Made by a program: the position numbers and the translations under genes. A stretch of DNA of 64,000 bases from Congeria kusceri (Eukaryota; Mollusca; Bivalvia; Myida; Dreissenidae), in NCBI GenBank assembly GCA_027627225.1, contig CM051026.1:10211425-10275424 (forward strand), in the 5' to 3' direction. Of the stretch, positions 4,877 through 56,585 are shown one piece after another. Position 1 is the stretch's first letter; the number at the start of each line of letters is the position of its first letter. The notes beneath the pieces were generated by a model. The model was not told the origin of the DNA and did no database searches. It was given only the letters and a program-made list of their open reading frames with translations.

Positions 4877-5430
4877 GCCACTTACACAGCCAGGCAACAC
4901 ACTGATGTAACACAACTATATGACACAACGACGTAACTCAACCAGGCGACACAGCGATGTAACACAACCAGGAGACACAACGTTGTGAAACAACCAAGCA
5001 TTACAACAACATAATACAATTAGGATACACAACGACGTGACACAACCAGGATACACAACGACGTGACACAACAAGGCGACACAACGACGTAACAAAAACC
5101 AGGCGACACAACGACGTAACACAACCAGGCGACACAACGACGTGACACAACCAGGCGACATAACGACGTAACTCAACCAGGCGACACAGCGACGAAACAC
5201 AACTAGGCGACACAACGATGTAACGCAACCAGGCGACACAACGACGTAACACAATCAGGCGACACAACGTTGTGAAACAACCAAGCATTACAACAACATA
5301 AAACAATTAGGATACAAAACGACGTAACACAACCAGGCGACACAACAACGTAACACAACCAGGCGACACAACAACGTAACACAACCAGGCGTCACAACGA
5401 CGTAACACAACAAAAACACCACCAACACAA
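4877..5430 (+). repeat. 26-bp minisatellite, locus 1
   Basis: About 21 units of 26 bp made of two related 13-mers, CGTAACACAACCA and GGCGACACAACGA. A sub-block (about 4960-5030) recurs at 5260-5310, showing local duplication. Because 26 is not a multiple of 3, the reading frame rotates from unit to unit, and the minus strand happens to lack stops. The long frames there are therefore artefacts. Confidence 0.93.
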
Positions 5431-13544: not shown

Positions 13545-14425
13545 GTGCTGGAAAATGTGACACAACCAAAGATGCAACGACGTGACACAACCAAACACTG
13601 CATGGAAGTGACACAACCAAACGGTGCAACGAAGTGACACAACCAAACGGTGCAACACAGTGACACAACCAAACGATTCAACGACGTGACACAACCAAAC
13701 GGTGCACGAAGTGACACACCAAACCATGCAACAAAGTGACACCACCAAAATGATGCAACAAAGTAAAACAACCAAACGAGCAACAAAGTGACACAGTCAA
13801 AATATGCAACAACATGACACAACCAAACGATGCAACAACGTGACACAACCAAGCGATGCATCAACCTGACACAACTAAATGATGCAACAACGCTATATAA
13901 CCAAGCGATGTGACAACGTGAAACAACAAAACGATGCAACAACGTGACACAACCAAGCGATATAACAAAGTGGCACAACCAAACGATGCAACGACCTGAC
14001 ACAATCAAGCGACGCAATGACATCAACGACGCAATTAAGCAACGTAATGACTGAAACAACAAAATGATGCAAAGTGGCACAACCAAACGATGCAACGAAG
14101 TGGCACACCAAACGATGCAACGACGTGACACAACCAAGCGACGCAACGACGTGACACAACCAAGCGACAGAGTGACATGACACGACCAAGTGACGCAACG
14201 AAGTGACACAACCAAGTGACGAAACGACATGACACAACCAAGCGACGCAACGAAATGACACAACCAAGTGACGATACGACATGACAAACAAGCCACGCAA
14301 CGAAGTGACACAACCAAGCGACGCAACGAAGTAACACAACCAAGCGATGCAACGATACGACACAACCAAGCGACGCAACGAAGTGATACAACCAAGCGAC
14401 GCAACGACGTGACACAACCAAACTA
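13545..14425 (+). repeat. 26-bp minisatellite, locus 2
   Basis: About 34 units of the two-part 26-mer; here the second 13-mer is mostly AACGATGCAACGA on the left and AGCGACGCAACGA on the right, giving a gradient of unit types across the array. The 291-codon and other minus-strand frames rich in Val, Cys, Leu and Ser are rotating readings of the repeat and not proteins. Confidence 0.93.
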
Positions 14426-16099
14426 TGAATATAAGTTTTCTTCAACGACATTGTCAATACTTTATATTTATAATGAAGCCATCGAAAGAAAGCGAATATC
14501 ATTGCATATTAGCACATCATGTACACTCAACTAAAAAAGAAATCAGTAAAGAAAAGCATAACTCTGTTAAAATACAAAACAGAATACTGGGGAATGTTGC
14601 ATCTGATACTGGAGTTGGTCGCAAATTTATAGTTCACATTTAAAATGAATATCTTGTAGATTCAAGTCATTAGACTTTAACCAAAATATTGACGTTTTTA
14701 GTTAAGACGCGGTAGCTGGGGCAAGTTGGAAAGCTATATGATTTTTCACAAATCAAATATTTCACACACATGCGAAGAATAGGATCTCATTTGTCACATT
14801 TATACGTATGAAGAATACGACTGGACCAAAACGGTGTATGCGTGAGGATCACAGAAGCCTATGATTTCATTGCATATCAAAACCTGGATGGGATCACAAA
14901 CTTCACAGAAAATGTGAAGAATAAGACTGTGATGTGTGGAGAATAAGATCTCAATTTTCCCACCTGTGAAGAATGAGATTCTATTTTTCACAGATGTGAA
15001 AAATATGGTCCTTCAAAGCTCACATATTCTTAAAATATTCGAGCTAAAACAATAATATAACTGTTTATGAAAGATGATATAAAGAAGTTTAAAAACGAAA
15101 CCTTTTGGTAGCGAAATATTACAGAAATATAATGTAGTTGATTTTATAATCGCATGTTTTGACGTTGAGCTCAAATTTTATCCGTAAAATACATAAACAA
15201 TCATAAGCCATACTAATATAAGTTGGTTTAGTATTATTAAACTCTATAACTTATTTAATTACGTTTTTATTCGCAGGCAAAACAATAAACTATATCCGTG
15301 TGAGCTGAAATGTTATACAAATCGTAACTTCAACCGATTTAGCATTAACACTATAACTAACACACTTATAATCAGGTGGAGTTAACCCAAGGGAAGCAAC
15401 TGCTGCTAGGAAACCGCTACGAAGTAACATCGAGTTGTCTCTCGTGCGAAATAGGTAGCGCATGTTCGTGTCCGCATAAAGTGTATGATGAGGATACATA
15501 TTTTGATAGCAAACACAATAATATAAGAGCTGTATAATCATATTTTAATTGTTTTCATTTTCATGATATTTCGTTATATTACCTTATGGAATTTGCATAA
15601 ATGTTCAATAATGAGTTAGTTTGTAGCAGGCATTACTTTTATTTCAATTAAACAAAATGCAACTATCTATCGAAAACTTATCGGGCAATACAATGATGTA
15701 GTAGGAATTAAATCAATACAAATTAAGCAATCAAATAAACGGCATAACAAAGTATAAAAGCAACAAACATACTGCATGAACTGAAATTGCCGAGGCTTGG
15801 TCATTATTGTCTATATGTATTTTATACGGACATTGGGCAACAGCCCCTATGCAGTCATTATCTCGTAACATGTACGTATAATAAAAAGTGTAGTTGTGCA
15901 ATGCTTGTTCTTCCATACCCTGTCAGAAACATTTTCTTCACCACAAACAATTGGCATTACTATTAGACGCCATGTTTTCCGACGTTGAAATAAAGAAAAG
16001 CGTTAATATTGTTGCATTTGAACAATAATAAATAACTCTATTGTATCAACATGCGTACACGGTATAACAGCAGCGGGGCAAATCGCGTTAATAAAACCG
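14426..16099. other. No gene seen; TGTGAAGAATA-rich repeat at 14760-15010
   Basis: 14760-15010 holds several copies of GTGAAGAATAAGA and TTTTTCACA on both strands. The same motif family recurs at 59720-59890 and 60740-60870. 14426-14640 resembles 57430-57560 (ATTAGCACATC...TACTCAACTAAAAAAGAAA). The remainder is AT-rich without supported features. Confidence 0.55.
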
Positions 16100-16262
16100 T
16101 CTCCGTGGCCAAGTGGTTAGGGCGTTCGCCTACGGAGTGGGAGGTTGAAGGTTCGAGTCTCGCACAGGGCTCGTTCTGATATGGCCAGTTGCCTATCTAG
16201 CAGCTAGTCAAGTCGAAGGGTACCGATTACCTTTTTGCCAAGCGCCCGGCATATTGTATTAA
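16100..16262 (+). mobile_element. tRNA-derived SINE
   Basis: The A box TGGCCAAGTGGTTAGGGCG and the B box GGTTCGAGTCTC are spaced as in a tRNA (about 16107-16160). They are followed by an unrelated body (CTAGCAGCTAGTCAAGTCG, AAGCGCCCGGCA) and a short AT-rich tail. The first and last seven bases of the tRNA-like part do not pair, so it is not a functional tRNA gene. Pol III transcription is inferred from the boxes only. Confidence 0.7.
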
Positions 16263-16317: not shown

Positions 16318-17105
16318 GTACACTGACAGTTAATCCAACCAGGCGACACAACAGCGTAAGACAACCAGGCGACACAACGACGGGAACACAACCAGGCGAC
16401 ACAACAACGTAAAACAACCAAAGGACACAACAACGAAAACCAACCAGGCGATACGACAACGAAACACAACCAAGTGTCACAACGATGGAAAACAGTCGAG
16501 CCTCACAACGGCGGTAAACAACCAAGCGTCACAACGACGGAACGCAACCAAGCAACACAACGATGGGACTCAACCAAGTGACACAACTACACAACGACGA
16601 AACTCAACAAAGCGACACAACAACGGAAAACAACCAAGCGACACAACGATGGGAATCAACCAAGAGACACAACTACACAACGACGGAACTCAACAAAGCG
16701 ACACAACGACGGAAAACAACCAAGCGACTCAACGATGGGACTCAGCCAAGAGACAAAACGACGGAACACAACCAAGCAACACAACGACGGAAAACAACAA
16801 AGCGACACAAAGGCCGGACAAAACCCGGCGACACAACGACGAAATTCAACGAGGAGACACAACGACGGAAGTCAACCAAGCGTCACAACAACTTATTACA
16901 TCCAAGCAACACAACGACGGAACACAACCAAGCGACACAACGACGGAACACAACCAAGCGACACAACGACGGAACACAACCAAGCGACACAAAGGCCGGA
17001 CACAACCAAGCGACACAACGACGGAACTCAACCAAGAAACATAACAACAAAACGAAACTCAACCAAGAGACAAAACGGCCGGACACAACTATGCGACATA
17101 ATTTT
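16318..17105 (+). repeat. 26-bp minisatellite, locus 3
   Basis: About 30 units; the dominant 13-mers are CGGAACACAACCA and AGCGACACAACGA. A block at 16565-16640 recurs at 16670-16730. Plus-strand frames of 131-182 codons rich in Thr, Gln and Asn, and minus-strand frames rich in Cys and Val, all come from this repeat. Confidence 0.93.
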
Positions 17106-37693: not shown

Positions 37694-38602
37694 TTATAAA
37701 AACAGACGCTCTGCTGATAAAGTGTTTACTTGGTTGACAATGTGTAATAATGGTTTATTCATTAATTTAGTAACACACCACTGCTTTAGGTAGTCAAATA
37801 TTTTTCCAATTATTTTCTTATTTTTTGTTACTCTTGGTTTTCCATGTGGTGTCAATTCAGACAGAAGAAATGTTAGTCCATCCAGTTCGCCTCGTTTAAC
37901 TGATAACTGGAGGTGAGCTAAACAAAGTCCACTGTTGTCTATTTTCTCTGTCATTCCTTTGGAAATGATATCGTTTACTTTGAGTTCATTGAATGATTCA
38001 ATGTTTTTTACACTTTCACACTGATATTTTAACTTATTGATTGCTGACTGAACAGTACAGCTGTGATCCGAAAATTGAGAGTCTGTAACACCAACAGTAG
38101 AGCACAACTTCTGCAGGCTTCGCACATCACCCAGGGCATTGTGGGCAGAGTACTGTTCTTTCAAAAGATGACTCACAAGATACTCTTGAGAGTATGTTTC
38201 AAGGCTTGTGTGTGTGGCCTTAAACAATGAGAGAGTGTCAGCTATCCCTAAAACATACTTTGAAAGTGGCTCAATGGAAAGTGCGAGTTCAAATGCCCTA
38301 ATAACACGAGGAAAGTCGAACTTTAGAAAGTTATGACCCACAAGAATACAAGGCTGGTGCTGTTCAATGAATGTTACAAACATGTTAAGTGCCTCTTCAA
38401 GTGTTTTAGTATCAACATGCTGACCATTGTGGAACATTGAGCTGCCCGTGACAGTCAGACCTGTAACATCAGATTCCGTGGATGCTATCTGTTTTGACGG
38501 GAAAATGTTACAGCTTAAACATTTATCTGCACAGTTTGCAGCAATCTGTATTATGTCTGCATCTTTATGTAATGATGTTGTTTCAATATCACAGATTTGT
38601 TA
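37694..38602 (-). pseudogene. DEDDh (DnaQ-like) exonuclease domain of the same locus
   Basis: Open from a TAA near 38600 to TAA at 37694-37696. Exo I: CDIETTSLHKDADIIQIAA. Exo II: ILVGHNFLKFDFPRV. Exo III: AHNALGDVRSLQKL (His five residues before the Asp). The four acidic residues and the His of a DEDDh 3'-5' exonuclease are therefore all visible, and nuclease activity would be expected if expressed in frame. The frame is offset from the Mutator part through a short third frame (EIPPPKSVQTTEKVKADELI), so two indels separate the domains. The Met at 38437 is about 50 residues inside the domain and is not the start. Confidence 0.8.
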
Positions 38603-38650
38603 ACACCAATCAACTCATCAGCTTTAACCTTTTCAGTCGTTTGTACACTT

Positions 38651-39810
38651 TTAGGAGGGGGAATTTCTGTTACGTCTTGTTGCTATTCCACTCTGATCTG
38701 TTGGACCTTCAAGAATTTCACTTTCAATGTTGCCAAACTTTAGCATTGACTTCCGTTCCAATTTTCTTCGCTTGAACTCAACACTGTTTGCAATTTCAAT
38801 TCTTCGCTCGCAAAGTTTGTTTTGCTTGGTAGCATGAAATTGTAGCAATTTTCCAGGTGATATTCCTATACTTTGATTTACTGCGTTCACGTAAGAAGCT
38901 CCAATATTTGTCTGTGCTATGGCACAACTAGTTCTGATGTGAAGACTTTCTGAGCTAGAGTAGTTTGTTTTTTTAGCCTTTGCAGCTACCATACATTTGC
39001 ACGACTCCACGTCTTTTGTTGATGCACCTGGGGCTATCTTAGCAGCATTCTGGACCACAACATTAAACACAGCTTCTAAATCTGACCTAACGGTTGCTCC
39101 AGTCAAAGATCTACCATAAGGCAAACCTCTGTGTTTATAGGTCTGTGGACTTTTCTTGTAGCCACACCATTCCCCACAATGTTCATAGTCTCCAAACAGA
39201 TGAGGAACAATTTGTTTAAGAGCTGATGTAAATTTATCAACGTCACCGTTGTTTTGCGCTAAAGCATAGTTGATACACTTTTGTATGTATTTAATAACCA
39301 TCACTGAACGAACTTTATGTTTTTTCTGTAGGGCATACAAGCTGTTGCCAATGTGCTTCACCGTGTGATTTTGGTCACTCCATTTCTCTACACTGTGTCT
39401 CAGATCTTTTCTTACTCTAGCTAAAGTTGTACAGTCGTCATCCATTATAAGGACACCAACATCAACATGTTCTGATTCAATTTCTTTTACTAGCTCTCCT
39501 GACACATCTGGCTCCATTGCTTTTCAGCTACCAGTCCAATTTCTACTGCATTTATGATCTTTAACCACATTGCCCTTAGCTTTATGATAATCCCATTTCT
39601 TACAACTTTTGGAGCGTATGCCATATGCACAGATTGTTCCTTTCAAGTTTCCTAACATAGTTCTTACGCCTGATCTTCTGTCATAACATCTCCCTGAGCC
39701 CCTTTTCTGCCAGCCCATATCATATTTGAATTGTCCTGAAAGACGGGTCTGTGCCGGATCATTTATATATGTATGGTCGGAATGGACTGAAGTTTCAGCA
39801 CAACCATCCT
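38651..39810 (-). pseudogene. Mutator-like transposase domain, with one nonsense codon
   Basis: The acceptor AACTATTGCAG|AGGATGG opens the exon at 39810. Conserved landmarks in order: YDMGWQKRGSG (first catalytic Asp region), RNWTGS then the TGA where the family has Ser, KAMEPDVSGELV, VGVLIMDDDCTTLARVR (second acidic site), KHIGNSLYALQKKHK, IQKCINYALAQNNGD, the Cys/His segment GDYEHCGEWCGY, YKHRGLPYG and SSESLHIRTSCAIAQTNIG. The apparent Met at 39517 is internal, not a real start. Conservation on both sides of the TGA means the lesion is recent, or is a sequencing or recoding event. Confidence 0.8.
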
Positions 39811-44608: not shown

Positions 44609-45208
44609 TGTCGTAGGGTATATAATTAAACACTGTATATTTTAGTCCAGTTATCGTAAATTATCATTAATTATTTAAACACGCGTTCATTATTACGATA
44701 TACACATACATTAAACGTTTGATGAACAAAGGGAAACTACCCAAACAGTTTAATTGCATGTATAATCGACTAACAACGTAGTTATCACACCTTAACCCGT
44801 GATCCACGTGCACGAAAAATTTAGTTCAGGTTAGAGATATTTCTAGAACTGAAGAAAATTAAATATATTTATTCAGGTAATATATTATTATTATAAACAA
44901 ATAAAGGTTCATGTTTTAATTTAAGGTATACTTTTTGTATTTTACGCGTGTATTTGTAAAATATGTGTCTTTTATATTTTATTGCCAAAATAATACTTGG
45001 ATCACCGTACCGACATGTATGTGTATTTTCTAGGCATTTATTTTGATATTATAATTATTCGTTTTCTATGTTTAATTTAATATTTCTTTCAGAATTTCGT
45101 AGTTTGGCATCAATTTAAACGGTCAACCAGAAGAAAATAAACCTCTATAATATTTACTTCTGCGTTTTTCAATAAACCACGATCCACAAATAAGACACGA
45201 CCCTGAAA
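44609..45208 (+). repeat. LTR 1 of the gypsy array
   Basis: Starts TGTCGTAGGGTATATAATTA and ends GACACGACCCTGAAA, just before the primer site. The 3' end is AAA rather than CA. AATAAACCTCTATAATA and AATAAACCACGATCC near the end are candidate polyadenylation signals. Confidence 0.85.
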
Positions 45209-45209
45209 A

Positions 45210-45224
45210 TGGCGCCCAACGTGG
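45210..45224 (+). promoter_or_regulatory. Primer-binding site, tRNA-Lys type, first internal region
   Basis: TGGCGCCCAACGTGG lies one base after the LTR end. It matches the start of the site known for priming by tRNA-Lys1,2 in other LTR elements. Second copy at 47447-47461. Confidence 0.85.
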
Positions 45225-45343
45225 TTTGACCGTTTTTCAAGATACGCCCAGCGTTTGCGGAATAATGTAAAAGTTACAGAATAAATCGGTAAATTTTACT
45301 GTATTTCGGAAAAATAAAAGTGCACACGCGTTGCTGTAAATAC

Positions 45344-45510
45344 TGTTAGTCGATTATACATGCAATTAAACTGTTTGGGTAGTTTCCCTTTGTTCATCAA
45401 ACGTTTAATGTATGTGTATATCGTAATAATGAACGCGTGTTTAAATAATTAATGATAATTTACGATAACTGGAATAAAATATACAGTGTTTAATTATATA
45501 CCCTACGACA
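45344..45510 (-). repeat. Inverted copy of the first 167 bp of the LTR, first internal region
   Basis: The reverse complement of 44609-44775 with only a few changes: it begins TGTTAGTCGATTATACATG and ends at ACCCTACGACA, i.e. the LTR start TGTCGTAGGGT inverted. It sits between the leader and the integrase remnant. The same arrangement is at 47581-47747. Confidence 0.88.
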
Positions 45511-46169
45511 TACACGACCCTCAGACATTGTCAGATTGCGAGAAAAGTGATTGGAAATCTCATATCGCGCCATTAGTCCATGCATATAATGTCACGATCC
45601 ATAAAACCACTGGATACGCCCCGTACTATTTGATGTTTGGACGTCACCCAAAACTGGCGATTGATGCATTACTAGGTCTATCTTCAGAAACTGATGACAA
45701 TGTGTCAAAACACGAATACATTCGTAAACTAAAAGATAGACTGTCAGATGCGTATAAAAAGGCGGAAGAATGTGCAAAAAGTGCAGCTTCCGGTGACAAA
45801 CAGCGCTATGACGCACGCGCTAAGGCCAGTTCCTTAAGTGTCGGCGACTTAGTGCTTGTTCGCAATGTTGCATTGCGTGGTAAACAGAAACTGGCAGATA
45901 AGTGGGAGGGCACCCCGTACATTGTTGTCGGACAGCCAAACGCCGACATTCCTGTGTTTGAAGTTAACAAAGACTGTCCCCAAGCCAAGAAAACTAAAAT
46001 ACTTCACCGGAATCTATTACTGCCATTGCCGTACAAAGAAAAGTCACAAATTAAAAGCCCCAAATATATCATTCCGGCCCGTCGTGCAAATACTGACGAA
46101 TCTAATGCGCGACTAAAACGTATTCGTCAACCCCCGAAATGGCTGCGCTCGGGCGAATATATGCTGTAA
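45486..46169 (+). CDS. Gypsy integrase C-terminal remnant, copy 1
   Basis: 227 codons as an open frame from GTG, but the first eight or so codons lie inside the inverted LTR fragment, so the natural protein began elsewhere and this is a 5'-truncated integrase. Residues 22-65 (DWKSHIAPLVHAYN, TTGYAPYYLMFGRHPKL) are the segment just after the catalytic core in Ty3/gypsy integrases; the DDE residues are gone. Residues 119-180 (GDLVLVRN, KWEGTPYIVVGQ, KILHRNLLLPLP) fit the GPY/F module. Basic tail to residue 227, no chromodomain seen. No integration activity expected. Confidence 0.8.
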   Translation: MFNYIPYDIHDPQTLSDCEKSDWKSHIAPLVHAYNVTIHKTTGYAPYYLMFGRHPKLAIDALLGLSSETDDNVSKHEYIRKLKDRLSDAYKKAEECAKSAASGDKQRYDARAKASSLSVGDLVLVRNVALRGKQKLADKWEGTPYIVVGQPNADIPVFEVNKDCPQAKKTKILHRNLLLPLPYKEKSQIKSPKYIIPARRANTDESNARLKRIRQPPKWLRSGEYML

Positions 46170-46848
46170 ATAGTATGTATATAATATGTATTGAACATGA
46201 TAGTTTTCAAGTCAAAATGTCACTTTCCGAACGTTTATATTTTGTGTCATTGACTTTGTAACATGTTCAATACTTCACACTGGAACATTGCTGTACATTG
46301 TATATACTAGTATGTATAGCCCATTGTATTAACATGTATTATGCATGGAACTGATATGAAATAATTTCATTTCTAAAAATGCCTTTTAGTTTTGTTTGAA
46401 TATATTGCACCATCTATTGTTGTTATTTTTAAACGGAATTGATTTCCGTCTGAATGCGCGAGGGAGTTATACAGCGAGTAGTTTTGTTGTGAGATATATT
46501 ACTGTGTGATTATTGTAGAATTTACTGCGTTATACGGTTTAAACGTAGGTTCTAAGTAGAGTGTGTTATTAATTTTGCAGTTTTGTAGTAATATTTAGTA
46601 TTACTTACTTCGATTAGTAGTCGCATGGTTTTATTAATTGTGTGCCATGCATAGAATCATGTTTTTGAATATCCTGTATTGTGTTGTTGTTGTTGCTGTC
46701 GTTGTCGTTGTTGTCATAATCATCATATTGTATTTCGCGGCGAAAGTAATACCGCTCTCAGAGTATCAGCGGGAGTATGTCGTATGTTAATATTGTATTA
46801 ATTTTAAAACAAATGTCGGGGACGACATTTTAGAAGCAGCGGGAGTAT
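46170..46848 (+). other. 3' region of first internal segment, with PPT
   Basis: No long frame. From 46647 a short frame (MHRIMFLNILYCVVVVAVVV...) would give one very hydrophobic helix but stops early here. CAGCGGGAGTATGTCGTA occurs at about 46769-46786, and CAGCGGGAGTA occurs again immediately before LTR 2: the first looks like a duplicated polypurine tract plus the first LTR bases. Copy 2 lacks that extra TGTCGTATG. Confidence 0.5.
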
Positions 46849-47445
46849 GTCGTAGGGTATACAATTAAACACTTTATATTTTATTCCAGTTATCGTAAAT
46901 TATCATTAATTATTTAAACACGCGTTCATTATTACGATATACACATACATTAAACGTTTGATGAACAAAGGGAAACTACCCAAACAGTTTAATTGCATGT
47001 ATAATCGACTAACAACGTAGTTATCACACCTTAACCCGTGATCCACGTGCACGAAAAATTTAGTTCAGGTTAGAGATATTTCTAGAACTGAAGAAAATTT
47101 GATATTTATTCAGGTAATATATTATTATTATAAACAAATAAAGGTTCATGTTTTAATTTAAGGTATACTTTTTGTATTTTACGCGTGTATTTGTAAAATA
47201 TGTGTCTTTTGTATTTTATTGCTAAAATAATACTTGGATCACCGTACCGACATGTATGTGTATTTTCTAGGCATTTATTTTGATATTATAATTATTCGTT
47301 TTCTATGTTTAATTTAATATTTCTTTCAGAATTTCGTAGTTTGGCATCAATTTAAACGGTCAACCAGAAGAAAATAAACCTCTATAATATTTACTTCTGC
47401 GTTTTTCAATAAACCACGATCCACAAATAAGACACGACCCTGAAA
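46849..47445 (+). repeat. LTR 2 (shared, middle LTR)
   Basis: About 597 bp. Differs from LTR 1 and LTR 3 at its start (GTATACAATTAAACACTTTA) but shares GAAAATTTGATATTTATTC and TTTTATTGCTAAAATA with LTR 3 and not with LTR 1. It serves as 3' LTR of the first unit and 5' LTR of the second. Confidence 0.85.
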
Positions 47446-47580
47446 ATGGCGCCCAACGTGGTTTGACCGTTTTTCAAGATACGCCCAGCGTTTGCGGAAT
47501 AATGTAAAAGTTACAGAATAAATCGGTAAATTTTACTGTATTTCGGAAAAATAAAAGTGCACACGCGTTGCTGTAAATAC

Positions 47581-47747
47581 TGTTAGTCGATTATACATGC
47601 AATTAAACTGTTTGGGTAGTTTCCCTTTGTTCATCAAACGTTTAATGTATGTGTATATCGTAATAATGAACGCGTGTTTAAATAATTAATGATAATTTAC
47701 GATAACTGGAATAAAATATACAGTGTTTAATTATATACCCTACGACA
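47581..47747 (-). repeat. Inverted LTR fragment, second internal region
   Basis: Same boundaries and orientation as 45344-45510 relative to the primer site (47447) and integrase remnant. The rearrangement therefore predates the tandem arrangement, or one internal region is a copy of the other. Confidence 0.88.
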
Positions 47748-48406
47748 TACACGACCCTCAGACATTGTCAGATTGCGAGAAAAGTGATTGGAAATCTCAT
47801 ATCGCGCCATTAGTCCATGCATATAATGTCACGATCCATAAAACCACTGGATACGCCCCGTACTATTTGATGTTTGGACGTCACCCAAAACTGGCGATTG
47901 ATGCATTACTAGGTCTATCTTCAGAAACTGATGACAATGTGTCAAAACACGAATACATTCGTAAACTAAAAGATAGACTGTCAGATGCGTATAAAAAGGC
48001 GGAAGAATGTGCAAAAAGTGCAGCTGCCGGTGACAAACAGCGCTATGACGCACGCGCTAAGGCCAGTTCCTTAAGTGTCGGCGACTTAGTGCTTGTTCGC
48101 AATGTTGCATTGCGTGGTAAACAGAAACTGGCAGATAAGTGGGAGGGCACCCCGTACATTGTTGTCGGACAGCCAAACGCCGACATTCCTGTGTTTGAAG
48201 TTAACAAAGACTGTCCCCAAGCCAAGAAAACTAAAATACTTCACCGGAATCTATTACTGCCATTGCCGTACAAAGAAAAGTCACAAATTAAAAGCCCAAA
48301 ATATATCATTCCGGCCCGTCGTGCAAATACTGACGAATCTAATGCGCGACTAAAACGTATTCGTCAACCCCCGAAATGGCTGCGCTCGGGCGAATATATG
48401 CTGTAA
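47723..48406 (+). CDS. Gypsy integrase C-terminal remnant, copy 2
   Basis: Identical to copy 1 except residue 102 (Ala here, Ser in copy 1), plus at least one silent change. The same false start lies inside the inverted LTR fragment. The near-identity of two non-functional frames points to very recent duplication, gene conversion or misassembly rather than selection. Confidence 0.8.
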   Translation: MFNYIPYDIHDPQTLSDCEKSDWKSHIAPLVHAYNVTIHKTTGYAPYYLMFGRHPKLAIDALLGLSSETDDNVSKHEYIRKLKDRLSDAYKKAEECAKSAAAGDKQRYDARAKASSLSVGDLVLVRNVALRGKQKLADKWEGTPYIVVGQPNADIPVFEVNKDCPQAKKTKILHRNLLLPLPYKEKSQIKSPKYIIPARRANTDESNARLKRIRQPPKWLRSGEYML

Positions 48407-48883
48407 ATAGTATGTATATAATATGTATTGAACATGATAGTTTTCAAGTCAAAATGTCACTTTCCGAACGTTTATATTTTGTGTCATTGACTTTGTAACA
48501 TGTTCAATACTTCACACTGGAACATTGCTGTACATTGTATATACTAGTATGTATAGCCCATTGTATTAACATGTATTATGCATGGAACTGATATGAAATG
48601 ATTTCATTTCTAAAAATGCCTTTTAGTTTTGTATGAATATATTGCACCATCTATTGTTGTTATTTTTAAACGGAATTGATTTCCGTCTGAATGCGTGAGG
48701 AAGTAATACAGCGAGTAGTTTTGCTGTGAGATATATTACTGTGTGATTATTGTAGAAATTACTGCGTTATACGGTTTAAACGTAGGTTCTAAGTAGAGTG
48801 TGTTATTAATTTTGCAGTTTTGTAGTAATATTTAGTATTACTGACTTTGATTAGTAGTTGCATGGTTTTATTAATTGTGTGCC

Positions 48884-49090
48884 ATGCATAGAATCATGTT
48901 TTTGAATATCCTGTATTGTGTTGTTGTTGTTGCTGTCGTTGTCGTTGTTGTCATAATCATCATATTGTATTTCGCGGCGAAAGTAATACCGCGCTCAGAG
49001 TATCAGCGGGAGTATTGTATTAATTTTAAAACAAATGTCGGGGACGACATTTTAGAAGCAGCGGGAGTATGTCGTAGGGTATATAATTAA
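48884..49090 (+). CDS. Small single-helix frame between integrase and PPT (doubtful)
   Basis: From ATG at 48884: MHRIMFLNILYCVVVVAVVV, then IIIILYFAAKVIPRSEYQRE, running into LTR 3. One strong transmembrane segment made from a GTT/GTC-rich stretch. The place is where some gypsy elements have env, but copy 1 stops earlier and the hydrophobic run may just be repeat sequence. Function unknown. Confidence 0.25.
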   Translation: MHRIMFLNILYCVVVVAVVVVVVIIIILYFAAKVIPRSEYQREYCINFKTNVGDDILEAAGVCRRVYN

Positions 49091-49667
49091 ACACTGTATA
49101 TTTTAGTCCAGTTATCGTAAATTATCATTAATTATTTAAACACGCGTTCATTATTACGATATACACATACATTAAACGTTTGATGAACAAAGGGAAACTA
49201 CCCAAACAGTTTAATTGCATGTATAATCGACTAACAACGTAGTTATCACACCTTAACCCGTGATCCACGTGCACGAAAAATTTAGTTCAGGTTAGAGATA
49301 TTTCTAGAACTGAAGAAAATTTGATATTTATTCAGGTAATATATTATTATTATAAACAAATAAAGGTTCATGTTTTAATTTAAGGTATACTTTTTGTATT
49401 TTACGCGTGTATTTGTAAAATATGTGTCTTTTGTATTTTATTGCTAAAATAATACTTGGATCACCGTACCGACATGTATGTGTATTTTCTAGGCATTTAT
49501 TTTGATATTATAATTATTCGTTTTCTATGTTTAATTTAATATTTCTTTCAGAATTTCGTAGTTTGGCATCAATTTAAACGGTCAACCAGAAGAAAATAAA
49601 CCTCTATAATATTTACTTCTGCGTTTTTCAATAAACCACGATCCACAAATAAGACACGACCCTGAAA
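49070..49667 (+). repeat. LTR 3 (outer 3' LTR)
   Basis: About 598 bp, starts TGTCGTAGGGTATATAATTA like LTR 1 but has the middle-region variants of LTR 2. Ends CCTGAAA followed by CATG and then the continuation of the target repeat (CACACAATTACCAAAACATG). Confidence 0.85.
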
Positions 49668-51184: not shown

Positions 51185-52660
51185 AACGTGTTAAACAACC
51201 AAACGCCAACCAAATATCACAACCAGACGACACAACGATGTAACACAACAAAGTGACACAATGTCGCAACACACACCAGGCGACACAACGACGTGACACA
51301 ACCATGCAACACAACGACGTAACACAACGAGACGAGTCAACGACGTGACAACCAGGCGACACAACAACATAACACAACAAGGCGACATAACAAAGTAACA
51401 CAACCAGGCGATACAAAAAACGTAACACAACCAGGTGACACAACAAAGTAACACAACCTTGGACACAACAACGTAACACAACCAGGCGACACAACAAAGT
51501 AACACAACCAGGCGACACATCAAAGTAACACAGCCAGGCGACACGGCTATATAACACAACATTGGACACAACAAAGTAACACAACCAGGTAACACAACAA
51601 AGTAACACAACCTTGGAAACAACAATATAACACAACCTTGAAAACAACAATATAACACAAACAGGCGACAAAACAAAGTAACACAATCAGGCGACACAAC
51701 AACGCAACACAACCAGGCGACACAGCAATATAACACAACCTTGGACACACCAAAGTAACACAGCCATGCAACACAACAACGTAACACAACCAGGCGATAG
51801 AACGACGTGACATAACCAGGCGACACAACAATATAACACAACCTTGGACACAGGAACGTAACACAACCAGGCGACACATCAAAGTAACACAACCTTGGAC
51901 ACAACCAAGTAACACAACCTTGGAAACAACGATAAAACACAACCTTGGACACAACAAAGTAACATAAACAGGCGACACAACAACGCAACACAATCAGGCG
52001 ACACAGCAATATAACACAACCTTGGACACAACAAAGTAACACAACCATGCAACATAACAACGTAACACAACCTGGCGACACAACAAAGTAACACAACCAG
52101 GCGACACAACAACGTAACGCAACCAGGCGACACAACACCGTAACACAAGAAGGCGACACAACAACGTAACACAAACAGGCGATACAACAATATAACACAT
52201 CCTTGGCAACAACAACGTAACACAACCAGGCGACACAACAAAGTAACACAACCAGGCGGCACAACAAAGTAACACAATCTGGCGACATAGCAAAGTAACA
52301 CAACCAGGCGACACAACAATCTAACACAACCTTGGACACAACAACGTAACACAACCAAGCGAAACAACAAAGTAACACAACCAGGCGACACAACAAAGTA
52401 ACACAACCAGGCGACACAACAAAGTAACACAACCAGGCGACACAACAATATAACACAACCTTGGACACAACAAAGTAACACATTACAACCAGGCGACACA
52501 ACAAAGTAACACAACCAGGCGACACAACGACGCAACACAACGACGGAACACAACCAGGCAACACAACGACGGAACACAACCCGGCGACACAACGACGGAA
52601 CACAACCAGGCAACACAACGACGGAACACAACCAGGCGACACAACAACGTAACACAACCA
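51185..52660 (+). repeat. 26-bp minisatellite, locus 5 (largest)
   Basis: About 57 units, mostly AAGTAACACAACCA with GGCGACACAACA; interspersed shortened units contain CAACCTTGGACACAACA. Collinear with locus 1 (4877-5430) in the composite repeat but nearly three times longer. The 488- and 260-codon minus-strand frames are artefacts of the array. Confidence 0.93.
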
Positions 52661-53724
52661 CTTTTATTATACTAGTATATTCAGAGTGCTAAATATCGGT
52701 CTGAATTGTCAACGATTTAGTTTAGTTTATCACAAACCATGGCAGCACACTCAATAATGAATTGAAATATCAGGACATTTTATTCAAATGTCTTACAATT
52801 TTTGATCATACTGTATAAAGATCTTACAGTAGGGGAATTGATTAATGATTTTATACCTAGTGATTATCAATAAAAAAACATTAAGTGATCATATGGAATA
52901 AAGGCCGTACAAATAAATTCTGTGCTGTAAGTGATCATGGGTAAAATAGATCTTACATATTATACACATATCAATATTTCTTCCCAGAGGAGTGGGGAGC
53001 GGCGGGCAATCCCACGGGAATTTGACTAATTGTAGTTTGGGGGATCCAATTCCCCACCCTACATCCAAGCATTTTTGTCTAAATCCCCTCAATGGGGGAT
53101 GCTTAATTGGTGTATCAAATGGTGTACCAATATTACCGGGATCTAAAATCCGAACAAAGTCTATTTCCCGGGACCCGGAATCATTCGGCGTGTCAGATTC
53201 CCGCCCGTCAGTCTAAAGTCCAGTAAATATTGATAGGTGCATTATGATCATCACGAATAAAGACCGTTAACTAAGTGATCATCAACAAAGATCATACATT
53301 ATGTGATCGTCACAAACATTGATCGTCACGACGAAATGTCTTACAGTATCTATTCACCACAAATAAAGATCGTACACTAAGTGATGATAGTGAAAAATAT
53401 CGTACATTAGTGATTATCAGGAATACATATCGTTTAGCATGGGATCTTTACGAATAAAGATCGTACAGAATGAGTATGACCCATGCGAATACAGATCTTA
53501 CTTTGAGTAATCATAAAGAAAAATATCATACATAAAGCAATTCAAATGAAAAACAAAGTGTACGAATAATAAGCAACATCTGATTGAAATGCAGATGCAT
53601 AACATTATAATATTGTTGAAAACCTAGTTGCCAGGTCACGCACGATTCGGAGCCTCTCGTTGTTTTAGCACTGATAATTTCTGTGCATTATATACTGCTG
53701 AATAGGTTTGTTTTAGAATTAACG
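52661..53724 (+). repeat. Composite repeat copy 2, tail module
   Basis: Matches 5431-6230 of copy 1 (for example ATCAGGACATTTTATT, AAGATCGTAC units, GTCACGCACGATTCGGAGCC) except for the MITE at 52964-53240. No gene. Confidence 0.7.
52964..53240. mobile_element. 277-bp MITE, G-rich interior, ATTAT flanks
   Basis: Flanked by ATTAT (52959-52963, 53241-53245). Inverted ends ACACATATCAATATTT and, reverse complement of the right end, GCACCTATCAATATTT. Copy 1 has a single ATTAT at the equivalent place (near 5722), giving an empty site. The interior is unusually GC-rich (GGAGTGGGGAGCGGCGGGC, CCCGGGACCCGG). A 74-codon frame inside has no support. Confidence 0.7.
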
Positions 53725-54121
53725 TGTAACTCAGCTGAAAAATCCCCAAGCCACAATGGGAATTGAACCCGGGACCTCCCGGTTCCTAGGCAAACGCTCT
53801 ACCGCGTCGCTATAAAAGCTAGCTCGTATAGCAAGGCAGTATAAGTGTCCCATATGCATCACCCTACTACATACTCTCCCTCCATGTATGAAATTCTTCC
53901 ACGAATTTCCTTCTGCCTTGACATCTTTGGGGTGTCGTAAATAAGACAGTGGGTTATTTACGTTGGGCGCCAATGTAACCCAGCTGAATAAATCCCCAAG
54001 CCACAATGGAAATCGAACCCGGGATCTCCCGGTTCCAAGGCAAACTCTCTACCGCGTCGCTATAAAAGCTAGCTCATATAGCAAGGCAGTATAAGTGTCC
54101 CTTATACATCACCCTACTACA
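53725..54121 (-). mobile_element. Miniature LTR retroelement (TRIM) with tRNA-like boxes in its LTRs
   Basis: Direct terminal repeats 53725-53871 and 53974-54121 (147/148 bp, nine substitutions and one indel by my alignment), each TG...CA. Read on the minus strand, the 5' LTR (TGTAGTAGGG...GGGTTACA) is followed after one base by TGGCGCCCAACGT, a Lys-type primer site. The short internal part (about 102 bp) ends in GGAGGGAGAGTA, a polypurine tract, before the second LTR. There is no coding capacity. The insertion lies where copy 1 (about 6215) is uninterrupted; the target duplication is not clean. It must use enzymes from another element. Confidence 0.8.
53751..53814 (-). promoter_or_regulatory. 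tRNA-like A and B boxes inside TRIM LTR
   Basis: On the minus strand TAGCGACGCGGTAGAGCG fits an A box/D-arm and CCCGGGTTCAATTCCC fits a B box/T-arm, at tRNA-like spacing. The other LTR has the same at 54064-54001 (GGTAGAGAG, GGGTTCGATTTCC). Upstream is CTTTTATAGCG. The flanks do not form an acceptor stem. Pol III use is inference. Confidence 0.6.
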
Positions 54122-54590
54122 CACCTACTCAACATTCAACGAGCATTTGTAGGTTTAGTTTCACAATGGTCCATTCACATGAACGAAGTCTGTAGAATCC
54201 ACATACTCAACATGCGACGAGCATTTGTAGGTTTAGTTCCACAATGGTCCATTCACATGAACGAAGTCTGTAGAATCCACATACTCAACATGCGACGAGC
54301 ATTTGTAGGTTTAGTTTCACAATGGTCCATTTAAATGAACGAAGTCTGTAGAATCCACATACTCAACATGCGACGAGCATTTGTAGGTTTAGTTCCACAA
54401 TGGTCCATTCACATGAACGAAGTCTGTAGAATCCACATACTCAACATGCGACGAGCATTTGTAGGTTTAGTTTCACAATGGTCCATTTAAATGAACGAAG
54501 TCTGTAGAATCCACATACTCAACATGCGACGAGCATTTGTAGGTTAAGTTTCACAATGGTCCATTCACATGAACAAAGTCAACACTATTT
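54122..54590 (+). repeat. 78-bp tandem repeat, about six copies
   Basis: Landmarks per unit: CCACATACTCAACATGCGAC, GAGCATTTGTAGGTTTAG, CACAATGGTCCATT, GAACGAAGTCTGTAG. Units alternate between two forms (TTCCACAATGGTCCATTCAC and TTTCACAATGGTCCATTTAA). Copy 1 has one unit only (about 6220-6290). The unit is a multiple of three, so a repeated open frame appears (54095-54334); I do not call it a gene. Confidence 0.88.
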
Positions 54591-56104: not shown

Positions 56105-56585
56105 GACAGTCACGGTATTTAACGACGTGACAACCACGTGATGCAACGACGTGACACAACCAAACGATGTAACGACATGACATAAGAAAGTGATTCGACG
56201 ACATGACACAACCTAGCGAATCAATGACTTGAAACAACCAAACGATGCAACGACGTGACACAATCACACGAATAAACGACGTGACACAAAAAAAACGATG
56301 CAAAGGTGTGACACAATCAATCAAATCGACGACGTCACACAACAAAACGATGCAACAATGTGACACAACCAAACGAATCAATGACGTGACACAACAAAAC
56401 GATGCAACGAGGTGACACAACCAAACAATTCAACGACATGACGTAACAAAGCGATGCAACGACGTGACACAACTAAACGGTGCAACGACGTGACACAAGC
56501 AAGGGAGGCAACGAAGTGACTCAACCAAACGACGCAATGACGTGACACAACCAAACGACGCAACGACGCAACGATATGAGACAAT
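56105..56585 (+). repeat. 26-bp minisatellite, locus 6
   Basis: About 18 units, mostly ACGTGACACAACCA with AACGATGCAACG, closest in sequence to locus 2. Many units contain small indels. Minus-strand frames are artefacts. Confidence 0.92.

Follow-up and report, generated by a model that had tools for sequence, protein, structure and literature searches.

The window, the 64,000-nucleotide stretch of Congeria kusceri DNA analysed here, carries at 53725–54121 a non-coding element of 397 bases with two LTRs, in which every signal reads on the minus strand. An initial annotation had described a 397-bp element with TG...CA LTRs of 147 bp, a Lys-type primer site, a purine tract and no coding region, and this description holds, with LTRs of 147 and 148 nt. 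That annotation named no strand; the primer-binding site (PBS), the polypurine tract (PPT) and the A and B boxes place the element on the minus strand, with the 5′ LTR running from 54121 to 53974. The features are as follows.

54122..54580, + strand: 78-bp tandem repeat abutting the 5′ LTR, within a larger duplicated segment
53974..54121, − strand: 5′ LTR, 148 nt, TGTAGTAGGG...GGGTTACA, TG...CA
54052..54062, − strand: A box TAGCGACGCGG of the 5′ LTR
54009..54019, − strand: B box GGTTCGATTTC of the 5′ LTR
53984..53994, − strand: position of the T6 run in the 5′ LTR, a pol III-type stop; through decay this copy reads GATTTATTCAG
53872..53973, − strand: internal region, 102 nt, non-coding
53960..53972, − strand: PBS TGGCGCCCAACGT, tRNA-Lys type, one base past the 5′ LTR
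53874..53883, − strand: PPT GGAGGGAGAG, followed by TA and then the 3′ LTR
53725..53871, − strand: 3′ LTR, 147 nt, TG...CA
53802..53812, − strand: A box of the 3′ LTR
53759..53769, − strand: B box GGTTCAATTCC of the 3′ LTR
53735..53744, − strand: T5 run GATTTTTCAG of the 3′ LTR, following its tRNA-like part

Aligned over 151 positions, the two LTRs of the window copy share 92.7% identity; the family alignment gives 91.9%. No open reading frame of at least 120 aa is listed over the element, whose 397 bases hold 132 aa at most. The PBS matches, over 13 nt, the complement of what we take to be the 3′ end of tRNA-Lys, and a strict pattern joining B box, LTR end and PBS has one match in the window and none in 100 shuffles. 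Folding of the internal region as RNA is weak (z of −1.55, with 11 of 200 shuffles folding equally well), and on these values a strong RNA structure was dropped as a candidate feature.

Searches for the family covered the host's 1.55-Gb assembly. COX1 on its mitochondrial contig is closest to that of Dreissena polymorpha, at 95% identity, against 86% for Mya japonica. With the whole element as query, at least 45 places were listed, each covering positions 1–397 at 93–100% identity (895 first-look candidates, 40 of them scored). A 27-mer across the LTR–PBS junction, allowing up to two mismatches, matched the genome 551 times and a 27-mer from the A-box region, the LTR core, 864 times; the controls, reversed in the case of the junction, gave no match. 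We examined 39 fetched loci and the window copy, which as the best-scoring places are biased to complete copies, together with 30 of the 551 junction loci and 30 of the 864 core loci (the first exact matches in genome order) and 20 further junction loci. Distinct LTR–internal–LTR units, counted as one per 25-nt upstream flank, number 45. A perfect 4-bp target-site duplication (TSD) surrounds 28 of them (16 of 24 in the best-scoring set and 12 of 21 in the genome-order samples), three others match at three of the four bases and 14 do less well. When the comparison was shifted by 1 to 6 bases, 0, 0, 2, 0, 1 and 1 of the 45 units matched, and duplications of 3, 5 or 6 bp were found around none of them. 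At least three of the 45 units sit inside tandem arrays, and for these no TSD is expected. The two LTRs are identical in 10 of 37 aligned pairs, and the family has therefore been active recently. The element thus belongs to a mobile, recently active family of miniature LTR elements (TRIMs) with hundreds of copies, and two of the checks proposed in the initial annotation, a genome search for the element and a test for target duplications of 4–6 bp, came out in its favour, the latter at 4 bp.

Single copies measure 395–398 bp and tandem arrays are longer. Arrays with three to four LTRs and shared internal units occur at C586:23767–24661 (L028), C34 (L034), C50 (L033) and C4:32313680–32314323 (L059), the last flanked as a whole by the 4-bp TSD GTTA. 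Four further loci (L067, L071, L078 and L088) consist of an LTR, internal positions 1–79 and an inverted internal piece, 102–43; their common flanks indicate that one rearranged copy was multiplied. At L074, also represented by L127:2120–2225, a family LTR is followed by the full 18-nt Lys PBS word, which overlaps the start of an ARAGORN-predicted tRNA-Thr(TGT) gene (2150–2225); this junction could be an integrated strong-stop product beside a tRNA gene. Strict patterns found no relatives in viral and genome contig collections. Looser patterns returned 5 and 11 loci, and we judged these to be chance matches, as all 16 were without a downstream LTR copy or a BLAST match.

The window copy itself has a more complex history. 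Its flanks, gttgagtaggtg before TG...CA and [cg]gt[gt]aattctaa after it, are common to 16 of the 39 fetched loci, and when about 1.5 kb on each side was compared, homology to the window was found on both sides in all six of the flank-sharing loci so compared, spanning the 78-bp array and a 26-bp minisatellite. Because the flanks and the homology on both sides are common to other loci, we judge that the window copy was carried along when a larger segment was duplicated, and that it has decayed; it is then not an independent insertion. No TSD is visible around it (GGTG before, CGTT after); the sister copies L027 and L028, which represent the same ancestral insertion, retain GGTG on both sides. 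Its 5′ LTR is without T6 (TTTATT), the T-run having decayed. Similar 26-bp minisatellites (CACAACCAGGCGA-like) lie elsewhere in the window, at 4884–5411, 13557–14427, 16336–17045, 51207–52660 and 56121–56568.

The initial annotation had placed A-box and B-box sequences at tRNA spacing in each LTR, and we confirmed this by scoring the window against consensus strings that we take to represent the two boxes. With at most one mismatch in each box and 41–56 nt from start to start, three pairs were found in the window, two of them in these LTRs (spacing 43), and none in 60 simulated order-1 Markov windows. Under looser limits (at most three mismatches in A and two in B), chance pairs are common, with a mean of 23.9 per simulated window. 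A pair on the + strand at 16106–16160, with at most one mismatch in each box and 44 nt apart, may be the head of a tRNA-derived SINE. Promoter boxes thus stand in both LTRs, but the tRNA prediction that the annotation had also proposed was negative: ARAGORN called no tRNA in the window and Rfam gave no match in 53650–54200 up to E=5. In three young copies, Rfam did not match the tRNA family RF00005 and returned five weak matches altogether, two of which are 13-nt tmRNA matches (E 0.47) lying on the B box. Inspection of one young copy by hand left 3 of 5 T-arm pairs, 2 of 4 D-arm pairs and 5 of 7 acceptor pairs, four of these five being G-U. Since neither ARAGORN nor Rfam gives a tRNA, the tRNA-gene-like parts of the LTR, as judged from its sequence, are the promoter boxes and the T-run, not the whole. 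The exact A box is present in 68 of 74 LTRs and GGTTC in 69, all in young copies. We also looked for constraint on the boxes in the source lineages, using 37 of the 45 elements (eight with an LTR outside 144–150 nt were left out). Variants fell in the A and B boxes in 8 of 39 pre-insertion and 21 of 133 post-insertion cases (Fisher p=0.47; p=0.82 with the T-run added), which at the low power of 37 elements gives no signal of constraint.

TRIMs with tRNA-derived LTRs have been named Helenus (TRIMp3) (Kojima 2024, PMC10886601), so the view in the initial annotation that a tRNA-derived version in an invertebrate would be new does not stand. According to that description, Helenus occurs in molluscs, wasps, nemerteans, a brachiopod, a ctenophore, fishes, fungi and a lycophyte, and its animal members have 4-bp TSDs and Gypsy-like PBSs (PMC10886601). 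By this description, the present family resembles molluscan Helenus in TRIM size, tRNA-derived A and B boxes, PPT, 4-bp TSD and Gypsy-type PBS: it has two LTRs and is non-coding, its single copies fall within the 311–1263 bp given for Helenus, the boxes lie in the LTR, and the PBS and PPT stand beside the 5′ LTR and before the 3′ LTR, respectively. The tRNA-Lys PBS is among the bivalve types listed there, a zebrafish family forms tandem arrays as this one does, and the box motifs GGTTC and CGG are both present here (PMC10886601). The A box departs at one base, reading TAGCG where Helenus mostly has TRGCY. The family is almost certainly of the Helenus type. Its bivalve range in that account comprises 51 families from five orders of Pteriomorphia, whereas the present host is a heterodont; the main text of PMC10886601 nowhere uses the words 'Heterodonta', 'Dreissena' or 'Mercenaria'. 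None of the papers searched names both Helenus and Dreissena, and a Dreissena family may have been deposited in Repbase.

Two other TRIM groups invite comparison. Cassandra of plants is likewise a TRIM whose LTR contains pol III promoter-type sequence and which forms tandem LTR–internal arrays (PMC7215508, as described there), but its LTR derives from 5S rRNA whereas the LTR here is tRNA-like; a comparison of the window with Rfam at gathering scores gave no match, and neither did 53650–54200 up to E=5. The bivalve biv-TRIM (Satovic 2019, PMC6934838) also has solo and tandem forms, and differs, in the features described, in its terminal repeats (TDR) of 202–218 bp and internal region of 77–80 bp (147–148 and 102 nt here), in a PPT that is mostly GGGGAGA and in the absence of a clear PBS. 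It was reported as not detected in Dreissena polymorpha (PMC6934838), and its conserved segment TGATCCCAAAGGAC is found in none of our 40 element units.

A feature of most LTRs examined bears on how such an element could be transcribed. A run of six T residues (T6) lies about 14 nt from the LTR end, directly after the tRNA-like part; runs of at least six T are present in 34 of 37 5′ LTRs, ahead of the PBS, and in 32 of 37 3′ LTRs. Of 20,000 mononucleotide shuffles of one LTR, 245 placed T6 within the final 29 nt, so the run is unlikely by chance, though the copies could all have inherited it from one ancestor. Pol III is strongly stopped by such a run. Pol III RNA should therefore stop short of the PBS, and genomic RNA would have to arise either by read-through (giving an R of about 85–90 nt and a U5 of 13 nt) or from another polymerase. 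The predicted stop in the 5′ LTR thus argues against pol III as the main source of genomic RNA. In 67 of 74 LTRs, a T4 also immediately precedes the A box. In the Helenus paper, a T-run before the PBS does not enter the discussion, in which the wording on termination concerns Cassandra, and pol III transcription of Helenus is not demonstrated in its text either (PMC10886601). Cassandra RNA is described there as running from the 5′ LTR into the 3′ LTR, where it ends, with a repeat of 18 bp; here, by contrast, both LTRs have T6 downstream of their boxes. A Cassandra-like unit, free of TTTT and ending immediately upstream of the A box in the 3′ LTR, was considered and rejected, as among 40 loci it holds for the window copy alone, because the 5′ T-run of that copy has decayed. 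The Echinococcus TRIM paper (PMC4558846) nowhere mentions pol III, pol II, TATA or start sites.

Our best explanation is a non-coding LTR retrotransposon that would be moved in trans by a reverse transcriptase and integrase of the Gypsy type. The A and B boxes of the 5′ LTR would recruit pol III, which may start near LTR position 45, some 12–18 nt ahead of the A box. The majority of transcripts would end at the T6 of the 5′ LTR, at about LTR position 129–134, as short tRNA-like RNA, and a minority would read through the PBS and PPT and end at the T6 of the 3′ LTR. The LTR would then divide into U3 (about 1–45), R (about 46–134) and U5 (the last 13 nt), and tRNA-Lys would prime reverse transcription. 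The LTRs, the Lys-type PBS, the PPT, the 4-bp TSDs and the recent copies are direct observations, and with the transcription step set aside, the class and the trans-mobilised LTR cycle taken together are highly probable. A pol III origin of the genomic RNA by way of read-through is a tentative proposal, to which we give somewhat less than even odds, and initiation by pol II or otherwise shares the rest. Against the explanation as a whole stand the 17 of 45 copies without a perfect TSD, the failure of tRNA finders to detect the LTR and the single locus at which a Gypsy junction was found.

The leading alternative, which has nearly an even chance, is that full-length RNA comes from pol II, the tRNA-like part being a relic of a SINE insertion or a source of short, separate tRNA-like RNA only. 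The stop ahead of the PBS in 34 of 37 5′ LTRs favours pol II, as does the lack of a constraint signal in the boxes. So does the TATA-like word TATAAG, which 58 of 74 LTRs carry about 44 nt before the A box; a TATA box can also aid pol III. The absence of AATAAA and ATTAAA from the sense strand of all 74 LTRs speaks against pol II (AATAAA, which in 397 nt should be scarce in any case, is also absent from the 40 element units), and so do the exact A box and GGTTC in nearly all of these LTRs (68 and 69 of 74), with the reservation that the copies are young. The boxes are, moreover, described as conserved across Helenus families (Kojima 2024, PMC10886601).

As to the source of the enzymes, mobilisation by Gypsy is quite probable. 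Gypsy copies in the window carry the identical PBS word at 45210 and 47447, and their PPT–LTR junction is similar to that of the TRIM (GGGAGTA followed by TGTCGTAGGGT, against GAGAGTA followed by TGTAGTAGGGT). The interval 44609–49667 contains tandem Gypsy pieces: a 98.6% repeat includes three LTR-like copies, each about 600 bp long, and a 227-aa open reading frame with integrase domains among its relatives occurs twice. Elsewhere in the window, at 37694–39517 on the minus strand, open reading frames match exonuclease/PML_C and a Mutator-like transposase, the latter with named relatives in Mercenaria and Dreissena. At one locus, L125 (C1:10744700–10754600, minus strand), a family LTR is joined via the Lys PBS ATGGCGCCCAACGTGGGACG to Gypsy gag-RT; the same LTR appears in L097. 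It is 91.5% identical to the window 5′ LTR and 96.0% identical to the 3′ LTR of L140. About 1.9 kb past the PBS lie gag pieces with a CCHC match (E 6e-6) and an RVT_1 match (E 5e-39), and, judged by eye, the coding sequence breaks off within RNase H.

This locus may represent a partner element or a recombinant; an assembly fault is less likely. An autonomous Gypsy family carrying this tRNA-bearing LTR, of which the TRIM would be a deletion derivative, accounts for the order of LTR, PBS, gag and RVT_1 at L125, but we consider it rather improbable. Only one of the 30 sampled core loci showed the arrangement, the coding sequence ends in RNase H with no second family LTR in 19.6 kb, and blastn finds no similarity between the TRIM internal part and the L125 leader, which in turn has no match among the fetched loci; recombination of TRIM and Gypsy in one particle fits equally well. 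In a further reading, also unlikely though less so, every LTR would be a full pol III unit with its own terminator, comprising A box, B box and T6 and lying inside R. It would yield mostly short tRNA-like RNA, with genomic RNA by read-through only, comparable to the passage of retroviral transcription through the 5′ poly(A) signal, and exchange of the LTR with Gypsy would have produced at L125 a gag-RT element whose LTR is of the pol III type.

Two tRNA-derived SINEs in direct orientation beside a chance PBS-like word would explain the tRNA boxes in each repeat, but this reading can be dismissed with near certainty, being refuted by the perfect 4-bp TSDs that stand outside the LTR pair in 28 of 45 distinct copies and opposed by the 551 LTR–PBS junctions (none in the reversed control) and by the LTR sequence that continues beyond the search pattern in all 30 sampled core loci. 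Such SINEs share the A and B boxes and differ in having no LTRs, PBS, PPT or 4-bp integrase TSD, being moved by LINEs. The initial annotation had named stand-alone SINE copies with tails as the finding that would undo its reading; all 30 core loci proved to be LTRs, and no stand-alone SINE family with this head was seen among them. Those with distinct flanks (n=20) comprise ten full elements, four labelled solo and six others. Two of the solo loci, L097 and L102, in fact run into a PBS-like word; the remaining two are L096, with a TSD matching at 4/4 bases, and L098, without a TSD.

Two features are of particular interest, the T6 that precedes the PBS and the junction with Gypsy. A Helenus-type element in a heterodont bivalve lies outside the bivalve range given in the account of PMC10886601. 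The 10 of 37 sampled copies with identical LTRs make the family a usable system for asking whether a tRNA-derived LTR uses pol III, and T6 ahead of the PBS makes the prediction a sharp one: under a simple pol III model, there would be no genomic RNA without read-through.
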